From Fidelibacterota bacterium (GTDB taxonomy: Bacteria; Fidelibacterota; Marinisomatia; SCGC-AAA003-L08; D37C17): 64,000 bases of DNA. The translations under genes and the position numbers were made by a program. The stretch covers positions 1 to 64,000 of the forward strand of contig SCKP01000002.1 of NCBI GenBank assembly GCA_004124405.1, in the 5' to 3' direction. Positions within the stretch are counted from its first letter, which is position 1. Every line of letters begins with the position of its first letter. The notes under the pieces were generated by a model. That model was not told the origin of the DNA. It made no database searches and saw only the letters and a list, made by a program, of their open reading frames with translations. Of this stretch, positions 1 to 6,886 are shown in pieces.

Positions 1-650
1 CGTACAGCTTCGTCAAGTTGCGTGTCGTTTCCTTCATCATAAAACATACTTGCAACGTATCGAATCGGCCCAACTTCCACCATTGCAAGATTCAATGTGT
101 TTTTCAATTCATATTTGTTATCTGACAACCCATCTATTTCTGATTCTAAGGTCGAAATTTTCGTCTTTAAAACTTCAGTCTCAACATCCTTTTCTCCTAT
201 TTTTGTCAAACCTTTGGTGATTGCACCAAGTTCAATATATCGTAGAAGTGCCTTGTCCAGAATATCGAGTCGTGTCTGATATCGTTTTATTTGTGTATTC
301 TTCTGAACAATCTTGAGATCAATTCTTTCTATCCGTTCTTCCAATAAAGTTGTAGGACTTGATTGTTCAATATGTGCTCGTGCCAAAAATCCAAAAATAC
401 CCAATGATGTAATGAACATCAACACAACTACCGATACTATAAAATAAGATCGAATTGATGCAGGACTCGTTTTCCAATTCTGGAATGTCCACGATGCAAC
501 AACCAGTTTTCCTATTTCAAGGACTACCCCCATAATAGCAATTGCAAGTTTGGCGCCCGCAAAGATTGCCATTAATCCAACTATTGAATAATAAGCTGCA
601 ACTGTAGATATAGCAAGTGCAACCAATAGAGTTAAAAGACCAAAAAACAT
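1..650 (-). CDS. Partial phage-type membrane and coiled-coil protein, C-terminus off the window
   Basis: The minus strand is open from an ATG at 650 down to base 1 without a stop (about 216 residues), so the C-terminus lies outside the window. The first ~85 residues hold three hydrophobic segments (about 3-28, 30-50 and 63-85, the last containing VVVLMFITSLGIFGF and followed by RAHIEQ). The remainder is charged and heptad-like, as in a coiled coil. The layout and the HIEQ stretch resemble an uncharacterised protein of T4-like marine phages; that match is from memory. It lies 6 bases downstream of the phage polymerase end at 657, in the same direction. No function is known to me. It belongs to the foreign end of the window, not to the bacterial chromosome. 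Confidence 0.7.
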   Translation of the reverse strand, partial: MFFGLLTLLVALAISTVAAYYSIVGLMAIFAGAKLAIAIMGVVLEIGKLVVASWTFQNWKTSPASIRSYFIVSVVVLMFITSLGIFGFLARAHIEQSSPTTLLEERIERIDLKIVQKNTQIKRYQTRLDILDKALLRYIELGAITKGLTKIGEKDVETEVLKTKISTLESEIDGLSDNKYELKNTLNLAMVEVGPIRYVASMFYDEGNDTQLDEAV

Positions 651-656
651 TCGTTC

Positions 657-935
657 TCATCCAAAAAAATCTTCAAGTGTTGAAATATGTTCTGTTTGCC
701 ATCCGACTGCTCCCATTACTGAAGACATGGGTTCGATGAATGCTTTTTGAAATTGCAAATCATAATCGATGTATTCCTCCAAACCAAATTCTTTGGGCAA
801 TTGATTAAGAATTGCAATTACTGTATCTCCAACAGGATTTGGTTTCTTGAGATATGCAAATTTAATTTTCTCTCCATCTTTTATAGTAGGATAAGCGTTA
901 AGTAATTTCTTATCTTTCAATAATTTATTATAAAA
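657..935 (-). CDS. C-terminal fragment of T4-type phage DNA polymerase (gp43)
   Basis: About 93 codons ending at a TGA at 657-659. The translation reads like the thumb and tail of family B T4-type DNA polymerases: YPTIKDGEKIKFAYL, then LPKEFGLEEYIDYDLQFQKA, a GAVGW stretch and the terminal LEDFFG. The terminal motif is the kind of tail that docks on the sliding clamp. The frame stays open upstream to 959, and polymerase-like residues (YNKLLKDKKL) continue to roughly 935. The exonuclease, palm and fingers, normally more than 700 residues, are absent because the sequence changes into smc. The TTG at 920 is an internal codon, not a true start. This is a truncated gene, probably from a lytic myovirus. 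Confidence 0.8.
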   Translation of the reverse strand, partial: FYNKLLKDKKLLNAYPTIKDGEKIKFAYLKKPNPVGDTVIAILNQLPKEFGLEEYIDYDLQFQKAFIEPMSSVMGAVGWQTEHISTLEDFFG

Positions 936-958
936 AATAAAATGAAAATCAAAAAATG
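935..958. other. Breakpoint between phage and bacterial sequence
   Basis: An A-rich 24-base stretch separates a phage polymerase that has lost its 5' part (minus strand) from an smc that has lost its 5' part (plus strand). Both reading frames stop resembling their families here. No att-like duplication, tRNA or integrase is visible. A chimeric join formed during amplification or assembly is the simplest explanation; a real recombination cannot be excluded from sequence alone. Confidence 0.65.
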
Positions 959-3808
959 ATTACAATTGAAGTAACCCGTGCAGAAATTCAGCTTATTAAA
1001 ATCAAGAAAAAACCTTTACAAGATAAGTTGGGTGAGATTAAGAGTAAACAGTCCAGTTTGTCTGGTCAAATGAATTTAGATGAAGCTCTCACAGAGCAAG
1101 TTCAATCTCAGTTTGAAAATAAAAAGGGCGAGCTCAGCAAATGTCGAAAAGAGATTTCCTATCTGGAGAATATATTATCTACACTAAATAGCAACTTACT
1201 GGTTTGGGCAGAAAAAATATTGGGAAATGATAATCAGAAACATCATTTTTCCGATGAGTTGAAACATAATGAAGATAGCCTAATAATTTCTGCAATAAAA
1301 ATTGATGAATTGAAATCTAAAAAGAAAAAGTTAATGCCTGAAATTAAAAAGCGTCAAATTGATTTTAAAAGCCGTGAAAAGCAATATCAAAAAGTAAAAG
1401 ATAATTCCGATATTATTCAGAGAAATCAGGAAGAATTAAAAAAGCAAACAGAATCTGTATATTTGAAAATCTGTGAAGAAAAGGGTGTAATAGAAAGGTT
1501 GAAAAATACAATTACAGAAATAGAACAGAATAAAGAAACTATCGATGAAAAAATAGAACATTATAATCAAAAATTAGAAAATTCCAACGCAGATTCAAAT
1601 TTAGCCCGTGCAAATGTAGAAAATCAGGAAAAGAAAAACGGATTACTCAGCTACGAAGTAGCCAGTCTGAAGACTGAACACTCAAAGTTAGAGCAGGATA
1701 TTTTATCTAAAAGAGAAGAGGAAAATATTTTACAATCTAAAATATCCACATTATCCAGCCAAATAGACTTTTACACCAATATTATTGAAAATCATGAGGG
1801 AAAGCCAGCAGGTGTAAAACATATTTTAAGTAATAGTAAAAAGTATCCTTTTGTATTGGGTGTCTTATCTGACGTTATTGAAGTAGCTGATCCCTATCAA
1901 TTAGCGGTTGAGACAGCCCTGGGAGAGTATGGTAACTATTTGGTAGTTGATAGTCAAAAGAATGCTCAAATGCTCATCGCTGAAACAAAAGGTGGCTTAT
2001 CTATTTTTTCGCTGGATAACCTTCCTGAAGTTGCAACAGCTGAAATCCAAAATCATACTGAACTCCTACTAACAAAAATAAATTGCCAGCCTGAATTAGA
2101 AAAATTGCTGCAACTGCTTATTGGTGATGTGTGCATCCTCACTACTCATAAACCAGAACCTTATTTCAGCAATACTAAAATATATAATTGGGTAGATATA
2201 TCTGGCAATTACTTTGCTCATGGATATATTTTTAAATCTTCCGGACATAAATCGGATTCAGTGATAGGGCGGAACCAGAAATTAGAACTGTTAGAAAATG
2301 AGCTTATAAATACTAAAAAGAGTGTAAAAATACTAAACGGTAATTTAAAAGATCTTATAAATAATACCGATATCACCCGCAAGAATTTACAACTTAAAAC
2401 CGATGAATTAGATTCTGCTATACTGAAATTAAATAATTTTGAACAAAAGTTGAAACAACAGGATTATGTTGCAACCCAGCATCAAGAATCAATATTGGAG
2501 TACAAAGAAATTCAGAAAAAGATAGCTTCTCAAATTATTAATTACAACATCAGGCTTAAAACAGCCAAAGATGGTATTCATGATTTAGGGATTGAATACG
2601 AGAAATCATCTAAAGAATATGAAACCTTCCAGGAAAAAATAGCGGAAGATAGATCTACAATCAGAACCCATGAGCAGAATGTACAAGATGCTCGAATTAA
2701 ACTCCTGGAAATTGAAAAAGAAAATGAGGGACTGGAATATCGGATTGATACTTTTATTTCACAGAAGAATGAATTAAAAGTACGCATAAAAAAATATAAT
2801 TCTGAATTGCTGCGCATTGATAATGAGAATAAGAATTTACAAGCATCAATTTCTGATGGAAAAGAAAGACTAATTAATTTATCTCATTCTCTCGATAATA
2901 CTAGTAGAGAAAAGGATGAATTGGAAAAATTTTATAATAAATCATATGCAGAACTTCAACGCCTGCAGTCTGGAATTCGGGAGAGGCAAAAACAGAAGGA
3001 TGAATTTATAAATACTATTCGTGAATATGAAATCACCATTGCTGAAGACAGTAATGAAATAAAGTATCATCATAGTCGAATCAATGAGCTTTATAATGAA
3101 GAATTATCGGATGACCCCATTAGTTTTGATGAAGATGATTTACCGTCCCGAAAAGCTGAGATGGAAAATATCCAGAAAGCCTTAGATCGTATTGGTCCGG
3201 TCAATTTGGCTGTGGCTGAGGAATATGAAAAAGAATCTGAACGGTCTGGCTTTTTAACAGATCAGTATAGCGATTTAGTGCAGTCCGAAAAGACAATTAA
3301 TGAAACCATTGAAAAGTTAGATGGAGAAGCTCAGATAAAATTCATGGATACATTTACAGCCATTCAGGAAAATTTTACCAAGACCTATTCCTCATTTTTT
3401 AGGGGTGGCGAGGGGCATCTTCGACTGGTGTGTGAAGATGACCCTCTGGAAGCAGAAATTGAAATTATTGCCCGTCCCCCTGGTAAAAAGACCCAAACCA
3501 TACGCATGCTCTCTGCCGGCGAAAAAGCCCTTACAGCTATTGCCCTGCTCTTTGCCATTTATCTGGTAAAACCAAGTCCATTTTGTATTTTAGACGAAGT
3601 GGATGCACCCCTGGATGATACTAATATTGCAAAATTTACCAAAGTTTTGAAAGAATTCTCTAAAAAAACCCAGTTTATAGTAGTAACCCATAATAAACTC
3701 ACCATGGAAAAAGCCGATTATATGTATGGCGTAACCCAGGTGGAAGAAGGTGTGAGTAAAATTGTATCTGTGAAATTTAGCAGTGAAAAAGTGAAAGAGT
3801 TTGCTTAA
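956..3808 (+). CDS. smc: Chromosome segregation protein SMC, N-terminal ATPase half missing
   Basis: SMC proteins form the DNA-entrapping ATPase of bacterial condensin with ScpA and ScpB. This 950-residue frame has long coiled coils (about 5-275 and 440-740) around a hinge (about 280-440, with PFVLGVLSDVIEV and ETALGEYGNYLVV). It also has the C-terminal head, with signature LSAGEKALTAIALLFAIY (about 852) and Walker B FCILDEVDAPLDD. Complete bacterial SMCs are near 1170-1190 residues. Here the first ~220 residues, including Walker A, are gone. An in-frame stop lies just upstream at 938-940, and family resemblance begins within the first few codons. The ATG at 956 is therefore probably an internal codon of a gene cut at the phage junction. 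comF follows after 29 bases. Confidence 0.92.
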   Translation: MITIEVTRAEIQLIKIKKKPLQDKLGEIKSKQSSLSGQMNLDEALTEQVQSQFENKKGELSKCRKEISYLENILSTLNSNLLVWAEKILGNDNQKHHFSDELKHNEDSLIISAIKIDELKSKKKKLMPEIKKRQIDFKSREKQYQKVKDNSDIIQRNQEELKKQTESVYLKICEEKGVIERLKNTITEIEQNKETIDEKIEHYNQKLENSNADSNLARANVENQEKKNGLLSYEVASLKTEHSKLEQDILSKREEENILQSKISTLSSQIDFYTNIIENHEGKPAGVKHILSNSKKYPFVLGVLSDVIEVADPYQLAVETALGEYGNYLVVDSQKNAQMLIAETKGGLSIFSLDNLPEVATAEIQNHTELLLTKINCQPELEKLLQLLIGDVCILTTHKPEPYFSNTKIYNWVDISGNYFAHGYIFKSSGHKSDSVIGRNQKLELLENELINTKKSVKILNGNLKDLINNTDITRKNLQLKTDELDSAILKLNNFEQKLKQQDYVATQHQESILEYKEIQKKIASQIINYNIRLKTAKDGIHDLGIEYEKSSKEYETFQEKIAEDRSTIRTHEQNVQDARIKLLEIEKENEGLEYRIDTFISQKNELKVRIKKYNSELLRIDNENKNLQASISDGKERLINLSHSLDNTSREKDELEKFYNKSYAELQRLQSGIRERQKQKDEFINTIREYEITIAEDSNEIKYHHSRINELYNEELSDDPISFDEDDLPSRKAEMENIQKALDRIGPVNLAVAEEYEKESERSGFLTDQYSDLVQSEKTINETIEKLDGEAQIKFMDTFTAIQENFTKTYSSFFRGGEGHLRLVCEDDPLEAEIEIIARPPGKKTQTIRMLSAGEKALTAIALLFAIYLVKPSPFCILDEVDAPLDDTNIAKFTKVLKEFSKKTQFIVVTHNKLTMEKADYMYGVTQVEEGVSKIVSVKFSSEKVKEFA

Positions 3809-3837
3809 TACAAATGAATTAAAATAGTACAAATTAT

Positions 3838-4515
3838 ATGCATTCCCTCCTAGAATCATTTGAACAATTTATTTATCCCCAATATTGTAATACTTGTGAT
3901 ACTCCATTATCGGAAGTAGAACAATTGTTCTGCTCAAAATGTAGAGTAAATGATATTCAATTCAGTAAATTAGGAAATTGGGTTCGGCAACTCAAAACGC
4001 ATAAAAACCTGGATTATGCACATTCCTTTTATTGGTTTGGTGAGGTTATTCAAGCCTACATTCATCATTTAAAATATTCTGGTTGGGATACTTTTTTACC
4101 TCGACTCATTAATAATGCCATCAGGGAATCTGAATTGCCCAAACAAGCAACAGAAGCGGTATTGATTCCAATTCCACTTCATAGGGTGCGACAGCGGGAC
4201 CGTGGCTTTAACCAGGCAATGGTGATTGCAAAAGAATTAGCTCAGCAATGGAATCTAAAGTTAGATGATAAAATGTTGAAGCGGGAAAAATATACGCAAT
4301 CACAAACAAAGCTGAGTATTATTGAAAGACAGAAAAATATGTATATGGCATTTCATATGCTCAAAGATGCTCCTAAAGCTGTGTTATTAATAGATGATGT
4401 ACTCACAACTGGTTCAACAGTGGATGCATGCGCAAAGCAATTACGGGAAAGGGGCAGCACCTGGGTTGGCGTAGTTACATTAGCAACTCCAAAAATAAAG
4501 AAAATATATAGATAA
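3838..4515 (+). CDS. comF: ComF family phosphoribosyltransferase-like protein
   Basis: 225 residues, the usual ComF length. The N-terminus has a four-cysteine zinc site (C17, C20, C32, C35). The C-terminal part carries a type I phosphoribosyltransferase PRPP loop, VLLIDDVLTTGSTV. The middle contains the conserved RDRGFNQA stretch. ComF proteins are needed for DNA uptake during competence in several bacteria; the biochemical role is not settled, and other family members may act in nucleotide salvage. No other competence gene is next to it. It lies between smc and pgk, 29 bases after smc and 48 before pgk. Confidence 0.9.
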   Translation: MHSLLESFEQFIYPQYCNTCDTPLSEVEQLFCSKCRVNDIQFSKLGNWVRQLKTHKNLDYAHSFYWFGEVIQAYIHHLKYSGWDTFLPRLINNAIRESELPKQATEAVLIPIPLHRVRQRDRGFNQAMVIAKELAQQWNLKLDDKMLKREKYTQSQTKLSIIERQKNMYMAFHMLKDAPKAVLLIDDVLTTGSTVDACAKQLRERGSTWVGVVTLATPKIKKIYR

Positions 4516-4563
4516 AAAGTTCCTAACTTTTGTAATTTCCCGGTCTGTTTATCAGTCTAAAAT

Positions 4564-5754
4564 ATGAAAAATATTACAGAATTAGAATTAAATGGAAAAC
4601 GGGTACTCATTCGAGTGGACTTCAATGTTCCTCTAAATGGAGGAATTGTATTGGATGATTTCCGGGTAAGAGCCAGTTTACCAACTATAAAACATTGCTT
4701 GAATGAAGGTGCTTCGGTTATATTAATGTCGCATTTGGGTCGCCCAAATGGTGAGATTGTGCCAGAAATGAGTCTTGATCCTGTAGTATTTTGTTTGGAA
4801 GATTTACTTGATAGGGAGGTCATGTTCTCAGAGGATTGTATTTCAGATGATGCCATTGGGCTTAGTCAGCAAATGCTTCCTCGGGAGGTTCATCTTTTGG
4901 AAAACCTCAGGTTTCACAAAGGTGAATCAGAAAATGATCCTGTATTTAGCGCTTATCTTGCCGAGCATGCTGTTATTTATATTAATGACGCATTTGGAAC
5001 TGCCCATCGTTCTCATGCCTCCAATGTAGGTGTATCCGCAATAATAAATGAAACTGCCATTGGTTTTTTGATGGAAAAAGAATTAAAATATCTGGGTGAC
5101 GCAATGAAATCTCCTGAGCAGCCATGCGTTGTAATTTTAGGTGGCGCTAAAATTGATGATAAAATTACCCTCATTCACAATTTGATGGAAAAGGCAGATA
5201 CTATTCTAATTGGCGGAGCCATGGCATTCACATTTCTAAAAGTACTGGGTAAAAATGTAGGGGCTTCCTTAATTGATGAGGACCATATCAATACTGCAGA
5301 AGATATTCTAACTCTCGCTGATAAAACCAATACAAAAATTGTTCTCCCTGTTGATGTAGTGGCAGGTCTAAAATTATCTAACGATGCTACCTGGAGAATT
5401 TCCAATTTGGATAACCTGCAAACTGGTGAGGCCGGCTACGATATTGGTCCGGAAACTACCATGGCATTTGAAATGCTCTTATCCAATGCTAAAACTATAT
5501 TTTGGAATGGCCCCTTAGGTGTAAGTGAAATCCCCGCTTTTTCAACCGGGACCCAGGCAATCGCATCTGCTGTTATAGCCCAGACGGAAAAAGGTGCAAT
5601 ATCCATAATCGGCGGAGGAGATACGGCATTGGCGCTAAAAAAGTATGGACTAGAAGGGGGATTTACACATATTTCCACTGGTGGTGGCGCTTCCCTGCAA
5701 TTGATGAGCGGTAAACAACTTCCGGCATTAGAGGCACTTCAGGAGTATGCGTAG
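4564..5754 (+). CDS. pgk: Phosphoglycerate kinase
   Basis: Catalyses transfer of phosphate between 1,3-bisphosphoglycerate and ADP in glycolysis and gluconeogenesis, in the cytoplasm. 396 residues, normal for the family. Substrate-binding motifs are present: RVDFNVP (R17, D19), SHLGRP and ENLRFHKGE. The nucleotide side is also intact: GGAKIDDK, FWNGPLG, GGGDTA and STGGGASL. The 3' end overlaps tpiA by 8 bases, so the two glycolytic genes are probably translationally coupled, an arrangement common in bacteria. Nothing is missing. Confidence 0.98.
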   Translation: MKNITELELNGKRVLIRVDFNVPLNGGIVLDDFRVRASLPTIKHCLNEGASVILMSHLGRPNGEIVPEMSLDPVVFCLEDLLDREVMFSEDCISDDAIGLSQQMLPREVHLLENLRFHKGESENDPVFSAYLAEHAVIYINDAFGTAHRSHASNVGVSAIINETAIGFLMEKELKYLGDAMKSPEQPCVVILGGAKIDDKITLIHNLMEKADTILIGGAMAFTFLKVLGKNVGASLIDEDHINTAEDILTLADKTNTKIVLPVDVVAGLKLSNDATWRISNLDNLQTGEAGYDIGPETTMAFEMLLSNAKTIFWNGPLGVSEIPAFSTGTQAIASAVIAQTEKGAISIIGGGDTALALKKYGLEGGFTHISTGGGASLQLMSGKQLPALEALQEYA

Positions 5755-6496
5755 AATACGATATTGTGTGGCAAATTGGAAAATGAATTTTAACTGTTCT
5801 GAAACTAAATCATTTCTTGAAAACTGGGAAAAAAAAGATTTGATTAATAAGGAAGTTAAAACTATTTTTTGCCCGTCATTCACTGAACTGAATACTACTG
5901 CAAAACTGCTCCAAAATTCGAATTCTGAATTGGGAGCCCAAAATGTATATTATGAATCCAATGGCGCTTATACCGGGGAAATATCATGCAGAATGTTGAA
6001 AGAATTAGGATGCCAGTGGGTGATCATTGGGCATTCCGAACGCAGATCTATTTTTGGTGAAACAGATGAAATGGTATGTAATAAACTGGATAAATTAACA
6101 TCTGAAAATATGTACCCTATTGTCTGTATTGGAGAAACAAAAGTTGAGCGGGAAAATGGGAAAACAGAAGAAGTGCTTTCCCGGCAATTATCAGTGGCTT
6201 TTGAAAATCAAAAGGGGAAAAATATAGAAAATATTATCGTTGCTTATGAACCGGTCTGGGCAATTGGTACTGGAATTACAGCTACTAATGATATGATATC
6301 AGAAACACATCAATGTATTAGAAACATTTTTAGTACAAATGGTTTTAATGGAAGTAATATTTCCATTTTATATGGTGGCAGTGTAACAAATGAAAACGCA
6401 GCTGAGTTATCAGGAATAACGGATGTTGATGGTTTTTTAGTAGGTGGTGCATCGTTGGATGTGAACAAGTTTTATGCAATTTATAATCAACTTTAA
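5747..6496 (+). CDS. tpiA: Triosephosphate isomerase
   Basis: Interconverts dihydroxyacetone phosphate and glyceraldehyde 3-phosphate. 249 residues with the full active site: N10 and K12 in ANWKMN, electrophilic H96 in IIGHSERR, catalytic base E168 in AYEPVWAIGTG, and the phosphate-binding YGGSV and GFLVGGASL loops. It starts inside the end of pgk (8-base overlap) and is followed 12 bases later by secG, whose strong AAGGAG site overlaps the tpiA stop region. pgk, tpiA and secG look like one transcription unit that continues into tRNA-Leu. Confidence 0.98.
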   Translation: MRRIRYCVANWKMNFNCSETKSFLENWEKKDLINKEVKTIFCPSFTELNTTAKLLQNSNSELGAQNVYYESNGAYTGEISCRMLKELGCQWVIIGHSERRSIFGETDEMVCNKLDKLTSENMYPIVCIGETKVERENGKTEEVLSRQLSVAFENQKGKNIENIIVAYEPVWAIGTGITATNDMISETHQCIRNIFSTNGFNGSNISILYGGSVTNENAAELSGITDVDGFLVGGASLDVNKFYAIYNQL

Positions 6497-6508
6497 GGAG
6501 AAATAATA

Positions 6509-6886
6509 ATGTTATATGGAATAGCAATCTTTGTCTTTGTCTTGGTTTGTTTAATGTTAATGGGAATTATTCTATTACAATCCAGTAAAACGGGTGGAAT
6601 GGGTACAGCCATGGGTGGACAAGCAATTAATACGGCATTTGGTGGTCATGGAGCTGATAAACTTCTGGTTAAAATTACCAGTGGATTGGCTGTTGCTTTC
6701 ATGGTTTTGGCAATCACAATTGGAATGATGGATAATCCTGCTTCTCGGATTGATTTTAGTAATAAACCCACTCTTAGCCGTCATGAAGGATCTGGGAATA
6801 CTTCACCTGCACCAGCAATTGATCTACAGCCCATTGAAAAGGCCGCGCCTTTTGAAGCACCTACCGGAAACGACGATAGCAAATAA
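6509..6886 (+). CDS. secG: Protein translocase subunit SecG
   Basis: Small inner-membrane partner of SecYE. Two hydrophobic helices (about 2-22 and 50-71) flank the conserved cytosolic loop LLQSSKTGGMGTAMGG. 125 residues, with a Pro/Ala-rich, charged C-terminal extension beyond the second helix, which is not unusual in this group. An AAGGAG ribosome site precedes the ATG by about 8 bases. Placement after tpiA and before a tRNA-Leu gene is a common bacterial arrangement. The tRNA begins only 9 bases after the stop, so it is probably co-transcribed and released by processing. Confidence 0.95.
   Translation: MLYGIAIFVFVLVCLMLMGIILLQSSKTGGMGTAMGGQAINTAFGGHGADKLLVKITSGLAVAFMVLAITIGMMDNPASRIDFSNKPTLSRHEGSGNTSPAPAIDLQPIEKAAPFEAPTGNDDSK

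Follow-up and report, generated by a model that had tools for sequence, protein, structure and literature searches.

In metagenome-assembled genomes, chimeric contig ends carry foreign sequence at the tip, a single breakpoint, and a true continuation that lies on another contig with imperfect overlap. Chimeras are also formed during MDA, where most of them are inversions of nearby sequence from the same genome (Lasken and Stockwell 2007, PMC1855051). The window analysed here (the whole stretch of DNA under study, 1–64000) is the start of contig C61 (75,860 bases) in an assembly of 1.66 Mb and 68 contigs (G000), so that the feature described below, in which DNA of a T4-like phage abuts a bacterial smc gene, sits at a contig end. 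It shares the foreign tip sequence, the single breakpoint, and the imperfectly overlapping continuation of the first kind of chimera with no notable difference, and we consider the join to be, very probably, an artefact of library or assembly. Its phage side corresponds to the gp43 region of T4-like marine phages (Kyanoviridae-type cyanophages and uncultured marine relatives in IMG/VR), although, unlike that region, contig C61 holds only 934 bases of it.

Results

Positions 1–934 are of foreign origin and form a single continuous T4-like phage segment. Upon comparison with marine phages, which a prior reading made from the sequence alone (hereafter, the sequence-only reading) had proposed, the segment was found to share 86–92% DNA identity with several marine IMG/VR contigs (92% with L006 and 91% with L005). 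That reading had assigned the minus strand to the end of a T4-like DNA polymerase and the next phage gene, and both assignments hold (Table 1). The polymerase end matches profile phrog_262 with an E-value of 2e-31 over positions 760–852 of 856 (the C-terminal 93 positions), which identifies it as gp43 by family profile; it is 99% identical in amino acids to the C-terminus of the whole 849-aa polymerase of its closest relative, IMG/VR contig L005, where the same ORF comes next, and 54% identical to cyanophage gp43. The 216-aa ORF shares 87–93% amino acid identity over its full length with several IMG/VR marine viral contigs (e.g., L006) and 42% with a protein of Pelagibacter phage Mosig EXVC030M; searches of Pfam and PHROG gave no match, and its product is predicted, on our reading of the sequence, to be a membrane/coiled-coil protein. 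The ORF that follows gp43 is conserved in marine T4-like phages L005, L006, L011, L012, L015, and L017, but in some relatives other sequence, ~0.3 to 2 kb long, separates it from the polymerase.

Table 1 Features at the start of the window
Feature	Position	Strand	Evidence
Next phage ORF after DNA polymerase, at least 216 aa, open at contig end	3..650	-	IMG/VR homologues
T4-like DNA polymerase gene 3′ end (gp43 type, family B), last ~92 codons	657..935	-	phrog_262 profile
Junction, TAAA common to phage and smc sequences	931..934	.	Base-by-base comparison
Start of smc-derived sequence, six substitutions versus C38	935..967	+	Comparison with C38 and relatives
smc codons 224–1173, hinge and C-terminal ATPase part	956..3808	+	Pfam SMC_N, SMC_hinge

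Searches of the assembly for more of this phage recovered only the part of the first 6.9 kb of L005 that matches 1–934, and the full L005 polymerase and the 216-aa ORF gave nothing further. The phage contractile-tail sheath family was not found in the assembly by a search whose controls responded, while a search for Gp23 gave no match either in the assembly or in its controls. The absence of a prophage noted in the sequence-only reading also stands: neither an integrase nor att repeats were seen, host DNA does not flank the 934 phage bases on both sides, and the segment has one boundary only, with the contig end on its other side and, as its ORFs, the polymerase end and an ORF unmatched in Pfam and PHROG. 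Among 245 Neomarinimicrobiota genomes, G000 alone has a close relative (>50% identity) of the flanking phage ORF, and one other genome has a relative that is 46% identical. A recurrent phage–host link within the phylum was considered and rejected, with T4-like polymerase present in 4 of the 245 genomes (G000 included) and the join not seen in the other three. The polymerases of those three (L299 in G177:C84, L301/L302 in G107:C57, and L300 in G147:C90) are 27–47% identical to that of L005 and are possibly on viral contigs binned with the genomes.

Base-by-base alignment to the phage relatives and to C38, another contig of this assembly, shows phage homology ending after 934 and smc homology extending back to ~931, in agreement with the prior claim that both genes are cut off on their 5′ side within the same ~20 bases. 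Against L005 there are zero mismatches over 895–934, after which the window diverges from all eight phage relatives compared; two sides of unrelated origin thus meet at a single sharp breakpoint. The 4-base match shared by the two sides is probably no more than chance would give in such AT-rich DNA, and the junction 33-mer was not found in IMG/VR.

Beyond the junction the window continues as smc of Neomarinimicrobiota. On the plus strand, the sequence-only reading had correctly recognized this gene, as Pfam confirms, but had placed its beginning at ~958, whereas the break lies at 931–935 and the ATG at 956 is internal codon 224 of 1173 rather than a start. Within the window ORF, SMC_N is matched at profile positions 135–220 only, along with the SMC hinge, and the N-terminal ATPase part with Walker A is missing. 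The real 5′ end of the gene lies at the tip of C38 (15,648 bases), where 271 intact codons include the Walker A motif GPNGCGKS. The last 173 bases of C38 overlap window 928–1100 with 94% identity, and the smc frame of C38 continues in frame into the window; by frame arithmetic from the coordinates, 223 + 950 codons make 1173, as in the relative L165. C38 and the window together thus supply the Walker A, hinge, and C-terminal ATPase domain of a bacterial Smc, the first of which the window ORF alone lacks. On this combined reading of the two contig sequences, smc is unbroken in this genome and C38 is the neighbour of C61.

Related genomes carry the same arrangement without the phage segment. In DTTG01000030.1 (Candidatus Neomarinimicrobiota, isolate UWMA-0072; L165), C38 10513–15646 (90%) and window 928–6521 (88%) match one contiguous stretch that encodes an uninterrupted 1173-aa Smc and holds no phage DNA at the site; judged by length and match, this is the same record as G001:C30 (L159 is likewise the same record), and counts as one rather than as independent evidence. 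Its smc gene is flanked by a HIT-family gene on one side and by comF-like, pgk, and tpi genes on the other; these neighbours are named from our reading of the translations. The comparison of smc with Neomarinimicrobiota genomes, likewise proposed beforehand, also found two more genomes of the same genus (G004 and G005) to be continuous across the break. Because C38 and C61 are collinear in these relatives, the two adjoin, with no place for the phage piece in between; the true continuation of the window is therefore present both at the C38 tip and in DTTG01000030.1. The sequence-only reading had regarded a real capture of phage DNA as unusual and had named, among the observations that would overturn its view, the same junction in a related genome; that junction was not found in the genomes searched, including the 245 Neomarinimicrobiota genomes.

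The overlap between C38 and C61 is itself irregular. Six differences from C38 lie between 939 and 967 of C61, one of which creates an in-frame stop (TTA to TAA) in C61. At these six sites, the close relative (L165/L159) has the base of C38 five times and that of C61 never, and the more distant G005 matches C61 at three of them. Close to the C38 tip, at 1045 and 1092, the relatives side with C61. Substitutions are clustered at both overlapping tips (window 939–967 and 1007; G000:C38 15593 and 15640), with the close relative, near either tip, mostly matching the opposite contig. Both tips look unreliable, which may reflect read errors at thin coverage or strain mixing. Since C61 943–956 equals C38 exactly where the close relative differs, this stretch is the organism's own smc. 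An origin of 935–967 at a third locus was considered and rejected: the 32-base match to G001:C48 is an A-rich stretch that precedes an unrelated gene, and G000 contains no further copy of the pattern.

To place this branching end within its assembly, both ends of nearly all contigs were fetched as regions and compared. In one pair of tips the overlap is exactly 127 bases, as expected from a de Bruijn assembler run with k=127 on a mixed population. Other tip overlaps have 94.8% identity (308 bases) and 97.1% identity (275 bases), and the overall range of 94–98% would suit a metagenome bin drawn from a population, not a single cell. Branching ends, in which the tip of one contig matches the interior of another, occur in four further pairs (C1/C42, C9/C37, C12/C16, and C41/C47), so that of C61/C38 is not exceptional. 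At the start of C1, a tyrosine-recombinase-like gene (G000:C1:99-1168; L171) lies next to an apparent tRNA gene, and the C42 tip (L272) overlaps C1 1196–1675 with 97.7% identity; this pair probably represents an integrative element present in some strains. Given its resemblance to a real recombinase-bearing element, branching ends have several causes.

Discussion

The sequence-only reading had judged a chimeric assembly or amplification join likely, and the intact smc 5′ end at the C38 tip, together with a relative that is collinear without phage DNA, bears this out. We infer a technical origin for the join and, likewise, the way in which it came about. Under this model, in which the assembly is metagenome-derived, the window from ~931 onward would have the end of C38 as its true neighbour; the two contigs were left unjoined, plausibly through the sequence differences within their overlap, and C61 would instead have been extended via a chimera (a read, a fragment, or a path in the assembly graph) formed at the 4-base match, with an unrelated marine T4-like phage from the same sample as the putative source. 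The six substitutions at 939–967 count against a simple, clean join.

Among the artefactual routes, a template switch during MDA of a single amplified genome, linking the chromosome to a phage that infected the cell or was sorted with it, is unlikely. T4-like DNA and smc do meet at a short common sequence (TAAA), as in MDA chimeras, and AM-382-M06, a relative within the phylum, is apparently a single-cell genome, judging by its name. Contig tips overlapping at 94–98% identity are, however, not expected from one cell, and an infected cell should give many phage contigs, whereas nothing else of this phage was found in the assembly. Intermolecular MDA chimeras, including ones whose junctions show complementarity over a few bases, are documented (Lasken and Stockwell 2007, PMC1855051), but, unlike most MDA chimeras, C61 joins two unrelated genomes, and its assembly resembles a population bin. 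Should this route nevertheless be true, it would provide weak evidence for a phage–host pair.

A real joining in vivo, by recombination of T4-like phage DNA into smc in a minority of the population's cells, would agree with the sequence as assembled, and illegitimate recombination could proceed at a microhomology of 4 bases; if true, it would also show phage entry into a Neomarinimicrobiota host. We hold it to be very improbable: the same assembly contains an intact smc, none of the related genomes searched has the join, and the joined product is a truncated Smc beside a phage part that runs off the contig end. Moreover, T4-like phages have no known mode of integration. Finally, phage and host DNA on one contig could derive from a phage particle or genome that had picked up host DNA, whether by a transduction-like event or as a phage-borne smc. 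This is scarcely credible here, as the host sequence begins a 75 kb contig that starts with ordinary chromosomal genes in conserved order (smc, comF-like, pgk, tpi) and as no IMG/VR relative of the phage has smc at that place.

As an artefact of library or assembly, the feature is of curation value only, and window 1–934 should be trimmed from the contig. Left in place, the join could pass for a prophage, for a disrupted smc gene, or for evidence that links a phage to Neomarinimicrobiota as its host.
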